Below, one piece after another: positions 17,663-23,647 of a stretch of DNA of 64,000 bases. The stretch covers positions 1,488,001 to 1,552,000 of the forward strand of contig NZ_AP025592.1 in assembly GCF_023169965.1 (NCBI RefSeq), written 5' to 3'. The notes under the pieces were generated by a model. That model was not told where the DNA came from, searched no databases, and saw nothing but the letters and a program-made list of their open reading frames with translations. The position numbers and the translations under genes were made by a program. Numbering within the stretch: the first letter of the stretch is position 1; each line of letters begins with the position of its first letter. This DNA comes from Anaeromyxobacter paludicola. Its GTDB lineage: Bacteria > Myxococcota > Myxococcia > Myxococcales > Anaeromyxobacteraceae.

Positions 17663-18390
17663 GGAAGGGGGGCGATGAAGCCGGCCTGCCGCCCGGTCCG
17701 TCCCGCGTCGCGCCGGTGAGAGAAGAAGCGGCGCCGGTCGCACGCCGTGCAGAGGCCGAGAACCTCGACGTTTTCCGGACGGAGGCCGAGGGCGACGAGC
17801 GCCTGCACGTTCGCCTGCCAGAGATCGAGGTGCGGGGTTTCGGCCTGCGCGACCACCCCGGCCCCGAACGCGCCGGTGAAGCGATCGGCCAGGTCGGGAG
17901 AGACCTCGTAGCAGCAGCGCCCGATCGAAGGCCCGACCGCCGCCCGCAGCGATCCCACGGGGGTCCCGGTCAGGCGCGAAAGGGTCGCCGCCGTCTCGGC
18001 CGCGATCCGCGCCAGGGTGCCGCGCCAGCCGGCGTGCGCCGCCGCCACCGCGCCCGTCTCCGGGTCCGCGAGGAGCACCGGGACGCAGTCGGCGACCGAG
18101 ACGCAGGCGGCGAGCCCCCGGCGCCTCGAGACCACCGCGTCGGCCGGCTCGCGCGGCGCGTCCGGATCCGGCTCGACCACCACCCGCGCGCCGTGGACCT
18201 GATCGACGCGGGCGAAGCGCAGGCCCGTCTCGCGCCCGAGCCGGGCCCAGTTCCCGGCGACGGCCGCCGGGTCGTCCCCGACCCCGCCGCCGAGGTTGAG
18301 CGCGTCGTAGGGAGGCGCGGAGGCGCCGCCGTCGCGCGTGGTGAAGCCGTGCGGGAAGGCGGCGAGCAGGCGGCTCTTCACGATCTCCAT
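17659..18390 (-). CDS. pgeF: Multicopper-oxidase-like purine nucleosidase/phosphorylase-family protein (PgeF/YfiH, formerly laccase domain)
   Basis: 243 residues, full length for the family. The zinc-binding His and Cys residues are in DQVHGARVV, SVADCVPVLLADP and AAHAGWRGTLA. E. coli YfiH corrects misincorporated L-Ser in peptidoglycan precursors, and other members act on purine nucleosides; which applies here cannot be read from sequence. The ATG at 18390 matches the family N terminus. It diverges from the HAMP/GAF gene across 73 bp. Confidence 0.9.
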   Translation of the reverse strand: MEIVKSRLLAAFPHGFTTRDGGASAPPYDALNLGGGVGDDPAAVAGNWARLGRETGLRFARVDQVHGARVVVEPDPDAPREPADAVVSRRRGLAACVSVADCVPVLLADPETGAVAAAHAGWRGTLARIAAETAATLSRLTGTPVGSLRAAVGPSIGRCCYEVSPDLADRFTGAFGAGVVAQAETPHLDLWQANVQALVALGLRPENVEVLGLCTACDRRRFFSHRRDAGRTGRQAGFIAPLP

Positions 18391-18463
18391 GGCCGGGAGC
18401 CTAGCGCGCCCCGCGCCTTGTGGCGCGCGAAACCCCGGTGGTACGCTTTCGCGCTCGCGACCC

Positions 18464-19456
18464 ATGAACGCCTTCATCGAGAAGTCCATCGGCAGGAAGC
18501 TCCTCCTCGCCGTCGGCCTGCCCTCGGCCGTCATCGCCGGCGCCGGGCTCCTCTGGCTGCGCGCCGAGACCGCCCACCTCTCGCCCCACCTCGCGGAGGC
18601 CGTGCTCGCGGCCGTGGCCGTGCTCGCGCTCGCCATGTCGGCGGCCCACTTCCTCGCGGTGCGGCTCCTGGTCGAGCGGCCCCTGCGGAGCCTGGCCGCC
18701 GGCATGCGCCGGGCCGAGGAGGGCGATTTCCTCTTCCGCATGCCGGTGGCGAGCCGGGACGAGCTCGGCCAGCTCGCCGAGCGGTACAACGCCATGCTCG
18801 CCGCCATCACCGACCTGCACGCGCTCCGGCTCGACGACGCGCGGGCCATGGACTTCCTCCAGCGCGAGGTGGCGCTGAAGCGCGAGCTCGAGGCCCAGCA
18901 CCGGCTCCTCGACGACACGAACCGAAGGCTCGAGGCGCGCCTCAACGAGCTCACCCTCCTCCACGACCTGGGGCGCACCCTCGCCTCGACGCTGCGGCTC
19001 GACGAGCTGCTCCGCTACGTGGTGGATCACCTGGGGCAGGCGCTCGGCTACGAGCGCTTCGTCATCTTCCTGGCCGAGGGCTCGGGGGACCTCGTGGCGG
19101 CGGAGAGCTACGGCGTGCGGGCCGAGATCACGGGGACGCGCCTCCCGCCGGGCGAGGGCGTGGCCCAGGCGGCCGCCGTCTCCCGCGAGCTCGTGCTGGT
19201 GCGGGACACCGCCCGGGACTCGCGGCTGCAGGGGTCGCGGGTGGCCGACTCGCAGGGCTCGCTGGTGGCGCTGCCGATGCTCTACAAGGGCGAGTGCGTG
19301 GGGGTGCTCGACCTCTTCCGCCCGGTGCTCGACGGCTTCTCGGCGGAGGAGCTGCAGCTCCTGCAGTCGGTCGCGAGCCAGGCGGCGATGGCCATCTCCC
19401 ACGCGCGGCTGCTCGAGCACGCGCTCGGCTCCGAGCAGGCCGCCGCCGGCGGCTAG
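18464..19456 (+). CDS. Membrane HAMP/GAF sensor-like protein without an output domain
   Basis: 330 residues. Two transmembrane segments lie in the first 70 residues (LLLAVGLPSAVIAGAGLLWL and LAAVAVLALAMSAAHFLAV). A HAMP linker (about 70-125, RPLRSLAAGMRRAEEGDFLFRM), a coiled coil (about 130-165) and a GAF domain (about 165-315) follow. There is no kinase, cyclase or methyl-accepting domain, so any signal must pass to a partner. Its stop codon shares the palindromic CTAG (19453-19456) with the convergent pseudo-receiver gene. Confidence 0.85.
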   Translation: MNAFIEKSIGRKLLLAVGLPSAVIAGAGLLWLRAETAHLSPHLAEAVLAAVAVLALAMSAAHFLAVRLLVERPLRSLAAGMRRAEEGDFLFRMPVASRDELGQLAERYNAMLAAITDLHALRLDDARAMDFLQREVALKRELEAQHRLLDDTNRRLEARLNELTLLHDLGRTLASTLRLDELLRYVVDHLGQALGYERFVIFLAEGSGDLVAAESYGVRAEITGTRLPPGEGVAQAAAVSRELVLVRDTARDSRLQGSRVADSQGSLVALPMLYKGECVGVLDLFRPVLDGFSAEELQLLQSVASQAAMAISHARLLEHALGSEQAAAGG

Positions 19457-22400
19457 GGGACCTCCACCGCCCGGTTCACGTCGGGCTCCGGGCCGCCGCG
19501 CCGGGCGCGCTCCAGCTCGAGCTCGGCGAGGCGCAGCCGCCGGGCCTTGTCCTGCAGCGCCGCCTGGAGCCGCTCCGCCTCCTCGGCCCGCGCCGCGTCG
19601 CGCCGCGCCAGCTCCTCCCGCGCCCGCTCCCGGGCCTGCTCGAGGGCGGCGCGCGCCCGCGCGGCGGCCTCGTCCCCGGTCCGCGCCGCGAGCGCCGCCC
19701 GCCGCTCCGCCTCGGCCGCGCGCGCCTCGGCCGCCGCCGCCCGCCCGGCCGCCTCCCGCTCGGCCTGCTCCCGCCGGGCGCGCTCCGCCTCGACGAGCGC
19801 CTCGGCCTCGCGCTCGCGCGCGTCCCGCGCCGCCCGCACGCCCTCGAGCTCCTCCCCGAGCGCCCGCAGCCGCTCCTCGGCCTCGCGCGCCCGGGCCTCG
19901 CCCCGCTCGGCGCGCGCGGCGAGCTCGGCGGCGGCCCGCTCCCGCTCGCCCGCCAGCCGCGCCTCGCGCTCGGCCAGCGCCGCCGCCCGCGCCTCCGCCG
20001 CCTGGGCCGCGCGCCCGAGCTCGGCCCGATCGGCGGCCCGCGCCGCCTCGGCGGCCGCGAGGCGCGACTGGAGCGCCGCGACCCGCGCCTCGAGGGAGGC
20101 CCGCCCCTTCTCGGCCTCGCCGCGGGTCGCCTCCAGCCGCTCGGCCGAGGCCCGCGCCGCGGCGGCCGCCTCGGCCGCGAGCGCCTCGGCCCGCCGCTCC
20201 GCCACCGCGCGCGCCTCGGCCGCCTCCGCGAGGTCGCGCCGGAGCGCCTCCTCGCGCCGGCCCCGCTCGCCCCCCTCGGCCCGCACGACGCGGTCGAGCT
20301 CGGCGAGCGCGTCGGTCTTGCGCGCCAGCTCCGCCAGGAGCTCCTCCTCGCGCTCGGACTGCGCCAGCGCGGCCGCCTCGTCGCGGGCCCCGAGCGCGGC
20401 CTCCGCCTCGCGCCGGGCGCCCGCCTCGGCCTCGAGCGCCGCCGAGAGCCGGGCCCGCTCCTTGGCGGCCGCGGCGAGCCGGGCCTCGAGCTCGCGCCCG
20501 CGCTGGACGGCGGCCGCCGCCTGGGCGCGGCCGTCCTCGGCCGCCGAGGTGGCCTGGAGCAGCGCCGCCCGCAGCTCCTCCGCGTCGCGGGCCGCCGCCG
20601 CGAGCGCCTCCCCGGAGGCGGCGCGCGCCCGCTCCGCCTCGAGCGAGGCGCCCTCGAGCGCCGCCTTCAGGTCCGCGAGCTCGCTCTCCGCCTCGCGCGC
20701 GCGCGCCGCCGCGGGCGCGAGCCCCTCGGCCCGGCGCCGCTCGGCCTCGCGCGCCGCCTCGAGCTCGCCCACCCGGGCGCGGAGCTCCCCGGCCGCCGCC
20801 TCCGCCTGCTCGGCCCGGGCGCGCGCCGCCTCGGCGTGGCGCGTGAGGGCCGCGAGCTGCCCGGCCGCCGCGGCCACCCGCTCCTCGAGCGCGCGGCGGC
20901 GCTCCTCCGCGTCGCGCAGCGCCGCGGCGAGCGCGCCGGCCCGCCCGCGCTCCGCCTCGGCGGCGGCGCGGAGCTCCGCCTCGCGCGCGGCCTGGGCCTG
21001 CCGCTCGTCCTCGAGGGCGCAGAGCGCGGCCGCCGCGGCGTCCCGCTCCCGCGCCAGCTCGCCGGCGCGCGTCCGCTCCGCCTCCAGGCTCGCCGCGTGC
21101 GCGGCCCGCTCCGCCGCCCGCCCGCCCCGCTCCCGCTCCAGGCCGGCCCGGGCCTGCTCCAGGGCCCGCGAGGCCTCCTGCTCGCCCGCCGAGGCCTGCG
21201 CCGCCCGGGCCTCGAGCTCGCGCGCCCGCCGGGCCGCCTCCTCCCGCTGCCGCGCCGCCTCGGCGCCGGCCCCCGCCAGCGCCGACCTGAGCTCCGCCTC
21301 GACGCGCCGCCGCTCGCGGGCGCCCTGCTCCACCTCGGCCTGCAGCGCCCCCACCTCCTCGGCGCGGCGGGCCAGCGCCCGGGCGAGCTCGGCGGCGCGC
21401 GCCTCGAGCTGCTCGCGCGCGCCCGTCAGCTCCGCGCCCGCCGACCGCGCCCGCTCCTCCAGCTCGGCGAGCGCCGCCTCGGCGCGCCCGGCCCGCTCCA
21501 GCGCCGCCTCCGCGCCCGCCTCCGCCGCGCGCCGGGCCTCCTCGGCCGCCGCCCTCCCCCGCTCCGAGTCCTGCAGCCGCGCCGCCCGGTCCGCCTCCCG
21601 CGCGGCCGCCGCCTCGCGCTCGCGGCGGAGCTCCTCCTCGAGCGCGGCCTCGCGGGCCTGGCGCTCCGCCCGCGCGCTCGCCGCCCCCTCCTCGGCGGCC
21701 CGGGCCTCGCGCCGGGCCTCCGCGAGCGCCGCGTCGGCCGCCCGCGCCGCGCCCTCGGCCTCCCGGGCGCGCCGCTCCGCCTCCTCGAGGAGGCGGCCCT
21801 GCCCGGCGGCGAGCGCCTCGGCGCGCGCGCGCGCCTCCGCGAGCTCCGCGCCCCTCGCCTCCAGCTCGGCCGCGAGCCGCGCCGCCCGCTCCTCCGCCTC
21901 GGCGAGCGCGGCGCCCTGCCCCATCCGCTCGCGCGCCTCCGCCGCGCGCGCCCGCTCCCCGCCCTCGCGGGCCTCGACCAGCGCCGCCTCCAGCGCGCGG
22001 CGCCCGTCCGCGGCCTCCGCGAGCTCCCGGCCGCGGCGCGCCTCCGCCTCGCGGAGGGCCCGATCCAGGGCGAGCTTCTCGAGCATGAGCCGCTCGAGCG
22101 CCGCGGCGTGCTCGCGCTCGCGCTCGGCGAAGCGGGCCCGCTCCTCGGAGAGCCGCTGCAGCAGCTCCCGGAGGTCGGCGCCCGGTGCGTCGTCGGCGGG
22201 GGGCGCCCCGAGCAGCCGCCGGAGCAGCGCCGCGAGGTCCCCCGGCTCGAGCGGGAGGCCCAGGTAGGCGTCGGCGGCGGCCGGGCCGCGCGCGTGCGCG
22301 GCGATCGCCTCGGCCGGCGCCTCCGACGAGAGCAGCACGATCGGGAGCTCGGCGGTGCGCGCGTCGCGCCGGAGCGCGGCGCAGAGCCCGAACCCGCTCC

Positions 22401-22578
22401 GGTCGGGCAGCTCCGCCCGCAGGAGCAAGAGGTCGGCGGCGTCCCGGGCGAGGGCCGCCTCCGCCTCGGCGGCGGTCGTCGCCCGCGCCGGCTCACAGCC
22501 CTCGGCGGCGGCGATGGCCGCGAGCTGGCGCGCCGCCGCGGCGTCCGGCTCGACGATGAGAACGCGTCTGGAGTCCAT
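19453..22578 (-). CDS. Pseudo-receiver domain protein with a very long coiled coil (FrzS-like architecture)
   Basis: 1041 residues. Residues 1-125 form a response-regulator receiver fold (RRVLIVEPD ... LPIVLLSSEAP ... YLGLPLEP). The usual phospho-acceptor Asp is Arg54 (LLLLRAELPDRSGFG) and the conserved Lys is Leu108, so phosphorylation is unlikely. From about 130 to the end it is an almost unbroken Ala/Glu/Arg-rich heptad coiled coil of roughly 900 residues, long enough to span over 100 nm. Myxococcus FrzS, a polar motility protein, also joins a non-canonical receiver to a coiled coil, though it is shorter. The high-GC repeats create long antisense frames that are not genes. Confidence 0.85.
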   Translation of the reverse strand: MDSRRVLIVEPDAAAARQLAAIAAAEGCEPARATTAAEAEAALARDAADLLLLRAELPDRSGFGLCAALRRDARTAELPIVLLSSEAPAEAIAAHARGPAAADAYLGLPLEPGDLAALLRRLLGAPPADDAPGADLRELLQRLSEERARFAEREREHAAALERLMLEKLALDRALREAEARRGRELAEAADGRRALEAALVEAREGGERARAAEARERMGQGAALAEAEERAARLAAELEARGAELAEARARAEALAAGQGRLLEEAERRAREAEGAARAADAALAEARREARAAEEGAASARAERQAREAALEEELRREREAAAAREADRAARLQDSERGRAAAEEARRAAEAGAEAALERAGRAEAALAELEERARSAGAELTGAREQLEARAAELARALARRAEEVGALQAEVEQGARERRRVEAELRSALAGAGAEAARQREEAARRARELEARAAQASAGEQEASRALEQARAGLERERGGRAAERAAHAASLEAERTRAGELARERDAAAAALCALEDERQAQAAREAELRAAAEAERGRAGALAAALRDAEERRRALEERVAAAAGQLAALTRHAEAARARAEQAEAAAGELRARVGELEAAREAERRRAEGLAPAAARAREAESELADLKAALEGASLEAERARAASGEALAAAARDAEELRAALLQATSAAEDGRAQAAAAVQRGRELEARLAAAAKERARLSAALEAEAGARREAEAALGARDEAAALAQSEREEELLAELARKTDALAELDRVVRAEGGERGRREEALRRDLAEAAEARAVAERRAEALAAEAAAAARASAERLEATRGEAEKGRASLEARVAALQSRLAAAEAARAADRAELGRAAQAAEARAAALAEREARLAGERERAAAELAARAERGEARAREAEERLRALGEELEGVRAARDAREREAEALVEAERARREQAEREAAGRAAAAEARAAEAERRAALAARTGDEAAARARAALEQARERAREELARRDAARAEEAERLQAALQDKARRLRLAELELERARRGGPEPDVNRAVEVP

Positions 22579-22738: not shown

Positions 22739-23647
22739 TCAGCCCTCGACGATCTGCCGCAGCTCTCCGCGCACGCGCTCGGCGTCGGTCTCGTGCTTGA
22801 GGAGCAGCGAGAGCGTCTCGCCCGCGACGGCCGGGTCGAGCGCCTCGGCCCCGAGCAGGACCAGCCCGCGCACCCAGTCGAGCGTCTCGGCGATCGAGGG
22901 CGGCTTGCGCAGGTCGAGCCGGCGCACCCGGGCCACCGCGGCGACCACCTGCCGCGCCAGCGCCTCCCGGGCCTCGGGGGCCCGCGCCCGGAGGATGGCG
23001 AGCTCGCGCTCGAGCGTGGGGTAGTCGATGTGCAGGTGGAGGCAGCGCCGGCGCAAGGCGTCGGAGAGGTCGCGGGCCGCGTTCGAGGTGAGCACCACCC
23101 GCGGCGGGTGGCGCGCGCGGAAGGTGCCGAGCTCCGGGACGGTCACCGCCCCCTCGGCGAGCACCTCCAGGAGGAAGGCCTCGAACTCCGGATCGGCCTT
23201 GTCCACCTCGTCCACGAGGAGGAGCGCCGGGGCCTCGCTCGTCACCGCCTGCAGGATGGGGCGCGGCACGAGGAAGCGCTCGCTGAAGAAGACGTTGCCC
23301 TCGGCCGCGAGCCGGTCGGCCGCCTCGGAGAGGCTCGCCGCCCCGCCGAGCGCGTCGCCGATCCGGTCGCGCAGGAGCTGGGTGTAGAGGAGCTGCTTCG
23401 CGTACTCCCACTCGTAGAGGGCCTTGGCCTCGTCGAGCCCCTCGTAGCACTGCAGCCGGAGGAAGCGGCGCCCGGCCGCGGCGGCGAAGGCGCGGGCGAG
23501 CTCGGTCTTGCCCACGCCCGCCGGCCCCTCCACCAGCAGCGGCTTGTCGAGCCCCTCCGCGAGGAAGACGGCGGTGGCGATCTCGCGCGAGGCGAGGTAC
23601 CCCGCCGCCTCGAGCCCCTGGCGCGCGCTCTCCACGGTCGCGATCAC
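22739..23647 (-). CDS. MoxR-family AAA+ ATPase
   Basis: 302 residues from a GTG start. Walker A GPAGVGKT (41-48), Walker [12 protein letters not shown] and sensor region [19 protein letters not shown] are all present. MoxR ATPases act as chaperones, usually with a VWA or DUF58 partner encoded next door. No such partner lies downstream here: the next 160 bp hold no gene and are followed by the pseudo-receiver gene. The role is therefore open. Confidence 0.93.

Follow-up and report, generated by a model that had tools for sequence, protein, structure and literature searches.

An AglZ-type pseudo-receiver coiled-coil protein of Anaeromyxobacter paludicola and the absence of a conserved AglZ module from its genus

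We analyzed a 64,000-nucleotide stretch of the Anaeromyxobacter paludicola genome (the window), in which a gene at 19453..22578 on the minus strand encodes a 1041-residue protein with an N-terminal pseudo-receiver and a long coiled coil. The protein is probably (about 0.7) an AglZ orthologue that would serve the Agl-Glt machine as a scaffold, linked to MglA, independent of phosphorylation and with altered contacts. It is of a known AglZ type and represents no new type of protein. The lack of a phosphorylation site in the receivers of AglZ and FrzS, and the long coil of AglZ, have already been published (PMC4546325); the genus-wide deletion of a module from AglZ is new. The comparison also yields a testable product, namely a defined AglZ module of about 104 residues.

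The aglZ-like open reading frame is genuine. It starts with ATG, lies in a complete genome of 4.59 Mb, and has GC contents of 0.95/0.62/0.99 at the three codon positions. Orthologues were present in 18 of the 24 genomes of the family. The very high GC content and the long antisense frames might suggest that the coil is a GC-skew artefact read in the wrong frame, but this explanation has a negligible probability: orthologues exist, the hydrophobic periodicity is that of a coil (z=15), and the protein blocks conserved at both ends of the frame already refute it. The long frames antisense to aglZ are themselves GC artefacts.

A receiver fold without a phosphorylation site

The pseudo-receiver comprises residues 1–125 (22204..22578, minus strand, as for all aglZ features below). 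Pfam Response_reg matched residues 6–117 with E=3.6e-9, and an AlphaFold2 model (mean pLDDT 82, from a two-row alignment) showed receiver topology, with Z of about 19–20 against solved receivers including that of FrzS. In the model, strand b3 (residues 50–54) ended on Arg54 (codon 22417..22419), which alignments also placed at the phospho-acceptor position, and strand b5 (residues 104–107) was followed by Leu108 (22255..22257), aligned with the conserved Lys. The acid pair is represented by Glu10-Pro11, with Pro11 (22546..22548) replacing the second Mg-binding acid (CheY Asp13). The protein thus has none of the canonical acceptor Asp, Lys and intact acid pair of response-regulator receivers. 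The preliminary description had proposed a preserved receiver fold with Arg54 and Leu108 at the two key positions, to be checked by structure prediction; Pfam, the model and the alignments all agreed with it, and Pro11 is a further replacement. Replacement of the acceptor, of the Lys and of one Mg ligand predicts that the usual Asp-phosphate chemistry cannot take place.

Phosphorylation might instead occur on a neighboring acid, Glu56 and Asp59 being close to the acceptor position. We regard this as very improbable, since the receiver has also lost the Lys and one Mg acid and Asp59 is the usual residue of the "LPD" motif of canonical receivers. FrzS, moreover, does not bind Mg and does not need its nearest Asp (PMC1974792). 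Ser84/85, His95 (22294..22296) and Tyr105 (22264..22266) were retained in the window receiver. The last two are invariant in the alignments and correspond to His92 and Tyr102 of FrzS, for which roles on the output face have been reported (PMC1974792). By extension from Myxococcus xanthus, the pseudo-receiver would be a constitutive binding platform that uses its a4-b5-a5 face, as in FrzS.

Assignment to the AglZ clade

Guzzo et al. described AglZ (MXAN_2991) as a receiver followed by a coil of 1076 residues, and AglZ and FrzS as paralogues that both lack a functional phosphosite and are both linked to MglA-GTP (PMC4546325). The window protein has the same organization as M. xanthus AglZ, an N-terminal receiver without phosphosite and a long coil, although its coil is shorter (about 890 residues). 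In a tree built from receivers only (128 columns), the AglZ clade, named by architecture, was supported at 100/100 (30 rows) with FrzS-like proteins as its sister; the window protein fell within the subclade of its family (99/99) and the FrzS-like rows fell outside the AglZ clade. Members of this clade occurred as a single long protein per genome across Myxococcales, mostly of 1100–1560 residues. A receiver profile gave one strong match in nearly every genome of families f5–f9, usually within an open frame of 1100–1560 residues, and only weak FrzS-like matches in families f2–f4. When genome contigs were scanned with the receiver, the sole match was a distant locus in a Candidatus Obscuribacterales MAG.

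The likeness of the window protein to the AglZ clade extends to the acceptor Arg, to the output-face residues His and Tyr, which are conserved throughout the clade, and to a conserved C-terminal coil block. Close homologues that keep Asp and Lys had been named beforehand as evidence that would count against a receiver lacking its phosphorylation site; Arg occupied the acceptor position in all sampled members of the clade, and the Lys was absent from every one of them. The clade is equated with MXAN_2991 on the grounds of its architecture, its length, its single copy in each genome and its approximate position, with aglZ near 3.5 Mb in two Myxococcus-sized genomes (G118 and G103).

The preliminary description compared the protein with FrzS, and the comparison was sound in kind, in that both are coiled-coil proteins with a non-canonical receiver, as in a scaffold or polar protein of motility; FrzS is a paralogue, however, and the protein itself is orthologous to AglZ, which acts in gliding (A-) motility. 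M. xanthus FrzS (MXAN_4149, structure 2GKG) has in common with it the pseudo-receiver fold, the equivalents of His92 and Tyr102, and a coiled coil, and 2GKG was among the matches of the window receiver (E=6e-9), with the same domain order. Orthology with FrzS, which would make this a polar protein acting on type IV pili, is nevertheless highly unlikely and was rejected on the receiver tree, which places the protein in the AglZ clade at 100/100. FrzS belongs to the paralogous clade, serves type IV pilus motility, and has Ala rather than Arg at the acceptor position and a coil of 235 rather than about 890 residues. Furthermore, a separate gene at another place in the genome (G000:C1, 397 kb) is its FrzS-like copy; it matched 2GKG with E=1e-24 and was 40.8% identical to the FrzS receiver. 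A third subfamily of pseudo-receiver/coiled-coil proteins, of about 810–900 residues, was observed in Anaeromyxobacteraceae (L087, L088 and L091), with weak similarity (10–16 bits) to the AglZ module described below.

Should the M. xanthus scheme apply to the AglZ of the window, MglA-GTP would recruit the protein, and its coil would form a rod or filament by which the Agl-Glt gliding machinery is positioned at focal adhesions and the leading pole. Binding to MglA-GTP and localization to focal adhesions are accordingly predicted by analogy.

The coiled coil and the missing module

The coiled coil spans residues ~136–1029 (19492..22173). After residue ~136 the protein consists largely of A (34%), E (19%), R (19%) and L (10%), and only one Pro (residue 622) occurs between there and residue 1030. 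The hydrophobic power at a period of 3.5 residues was 4.0, compared with 1.0 in shuffled sequences (z=15), as expected of a heptad coil and in line with the coiled coil that had been proposed. The coil had also been called exceptionally long, which is true of coils in general and does not hold within the AglZ family, given the longer coil of M. xanthus AglZ (PMC4546325). Both ends of the coil are conserved. Block B, the conserved start (residues 139–187; 22018..22164), reached 21.0 bits, with 1000 heptad-block shuffles giving no more than 9.4; in G012, the one further genome of the genus, it scored 25.4 bits. The C-terminal coil block (residues 975–1037; 19468..19656), common to the Myxococcus-type AglZ, scored 38 bits with a profile built solely from other families, against no more than 12.9 in 2000 shuffles. 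In genera g5 and g6, AglZ orthologues of only 359–517 residues were observed (L033, L038 and L041), which keep the receiver, the module and the coil start and lack most of the coil together with the C-terminal block.

In all other AglZ proteins whose contig extends far enough, a Pro-rich linker comes after the receiver, and then a conserved module of about 104 residues and the conserved start of the coil. The module has the consensus RRS..TDEDRxFLDRxFQSIADRKAELLAESR..RPPPRREL..TPEGK.Q.LREELK.REAQ.ARLSEIW..REREL... and scored 126–175 bits in these proteins compared with −1.2 bits in the window protein, where a junction of 13 residues (22165..22203) replaces both linker and module. The module is weak or absent in FrzS-like proteins. 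A profile search of the whole genome found neither the module nor a second AglZ candidate carrying it, and tblastn gave chance matches only, so that we rejected a copy in a different reading frame or at some other locus of this genome.

Of 145 genomes searched, all those with an AglZ receiver also had the module, apart from G000 (the genome of the window), G012, G020 and G021, as judged by comparing the receiver and module genome lists by eye; the contigs of G020 and G021 end just past the receiver. The module was kept across families f1 and f5–f9 of the order and was missing in one genus, both genomes of which (G000 and G012) retain the flanking blocks. An assembly error is an unlikely source of the junction because two independent assemblies share it. 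The window protein also lacks the acidic/aromatic C-terminal tail, which was present in families f5–f9 (in Myxococcus-like genomes, DDDWTALVDELDK) and in no member of the window's own family. Module and tail were defined by the present comparison and not by published AglZ criteria.

Because the AglZ of the genus has lost the module and the tail (the latter family-wide), the complex probably departs from the Myxococcus arrangement in one or more of its cytoplasmic contacts. Cytoplasmic motifs of GltJ are reported to bind MglA-GTP and AglZ, and the Pro-rich linker and the module are therefore plausible docking sites. Neither AglZ nor FrzS has had its MglA-binding site mapped (PMC4546325), which makes the module a concrete candidate for a docking site. 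That the module docks MglA or Agl-Glt, and that the genus is a natural deletion mutant with gliding rewired or uncoupled from MglA, is a tentative and rather unlikely proposal.

Gene neighborhood and the gliding machinery

A gene for a MoxR/MadB-like AAA ATPase (22739..23647, minus strand; NF047784 E=1e-108, below its cut-off) lies 160 bp upstream of aglZ, probably in the same operon. On the other side, a gene for a HAMP-GAF membrane protein without output domain (18338..19456, plus strand) converges on aglZ with a 4-bp overlap at the stop codons (19453–19456). The family synteny is yfiH-(HAMP/GAF, convergent)-aglZ-MoxR. The HAMP/GAF gene was conserved beside aglZ in family f5 and in f1 with the exception of genus g5, and was not beside aglZ in g5 or in Myxococcus-like genomes. 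The preliminary description was right that this neighbor adjoins the gene and lacks an output domain; the convergent orientation and the gaps in synteny leave only a weak functional tie, which we rejected as a link, and the protein is probably outside the AglZ system.

The adjacency of aglZ and MoxR is conserved in the family and hints at a functional tie. MoxR also adjoins aglZ in Myxococcus-like genomes, with the gene order reversed (L075:3122-9119 and L078:6765-12164). An obligate partnership was rejected: MoxR was adjacent in the family and in some f6 genomes (order reversed) and was not near aglZ in several others. A literature search on MadB/MoxR returned nothing relevant.

Surface motility and A-motility genes have been reported in Anaeromyxobacter dehalogenans by Thomas et al. 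(PMC2330069). The genome of A. paludicola has a syntenic glt cluster containing GltC (510 bits; cut-off 450), GltG (607 bits; cut-off 650), a GltI-like TPR protein, and a diverged GltJ (163 bits against a cut-off of 450) that has its zinc ribbon, its GYF_2 and its C-terminal domain. Loss of the GltJ GYF domain along with the module was thus rejected. GltE was strongly diverged: at the syntenic place (L125:3995-4576, equivalent to G000:C1:1998994-1999575), part of the profile matched with 80 bits, compared with 247 or more for most of the family. The genome also contains mglB with an adjoining Arf-like match, a candidate MglA. The loss of module and tail, the weak GltE and the diverged GltJ allow for gliding being altered or lost in this organism.

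These losses could also mean that AglZ is a relict or has been repurposed, the genus no longer gliding by Agl-Glt and the receiver-coil rod acting as a scaffold for a different purpose, perhaps together with the MoxR ATPase. The genus-wide loss of the module, the divergence of GltJ and GltE and the conserved MoxR adjacency in the family are in accord with this, as is genus g4 of the same family, which lacks AglZ and whose GltJ-like frame has no C-terminal domain. We nevertheless consider it unlikely, if still worth weighing, since conservation persists in the receiver, block B and the C-terminal block, the genome retains GltC, GltG, GltI-like, GltJ and the mglB/mglA candidates, and several families have no MoxR next to aglZ. 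An AglZ scaffold with altered contacts remains our preferred reading.

In g4, AglZ was absent from four genomes. The GltJ-like frame of this genus (L113:6925-7698 in G016) encodes a hydrophobic segment besides the zinc ribbon and GYF_2 and lacks the periplasmic C-terminal domain; similar matches were present in G014 and G015.
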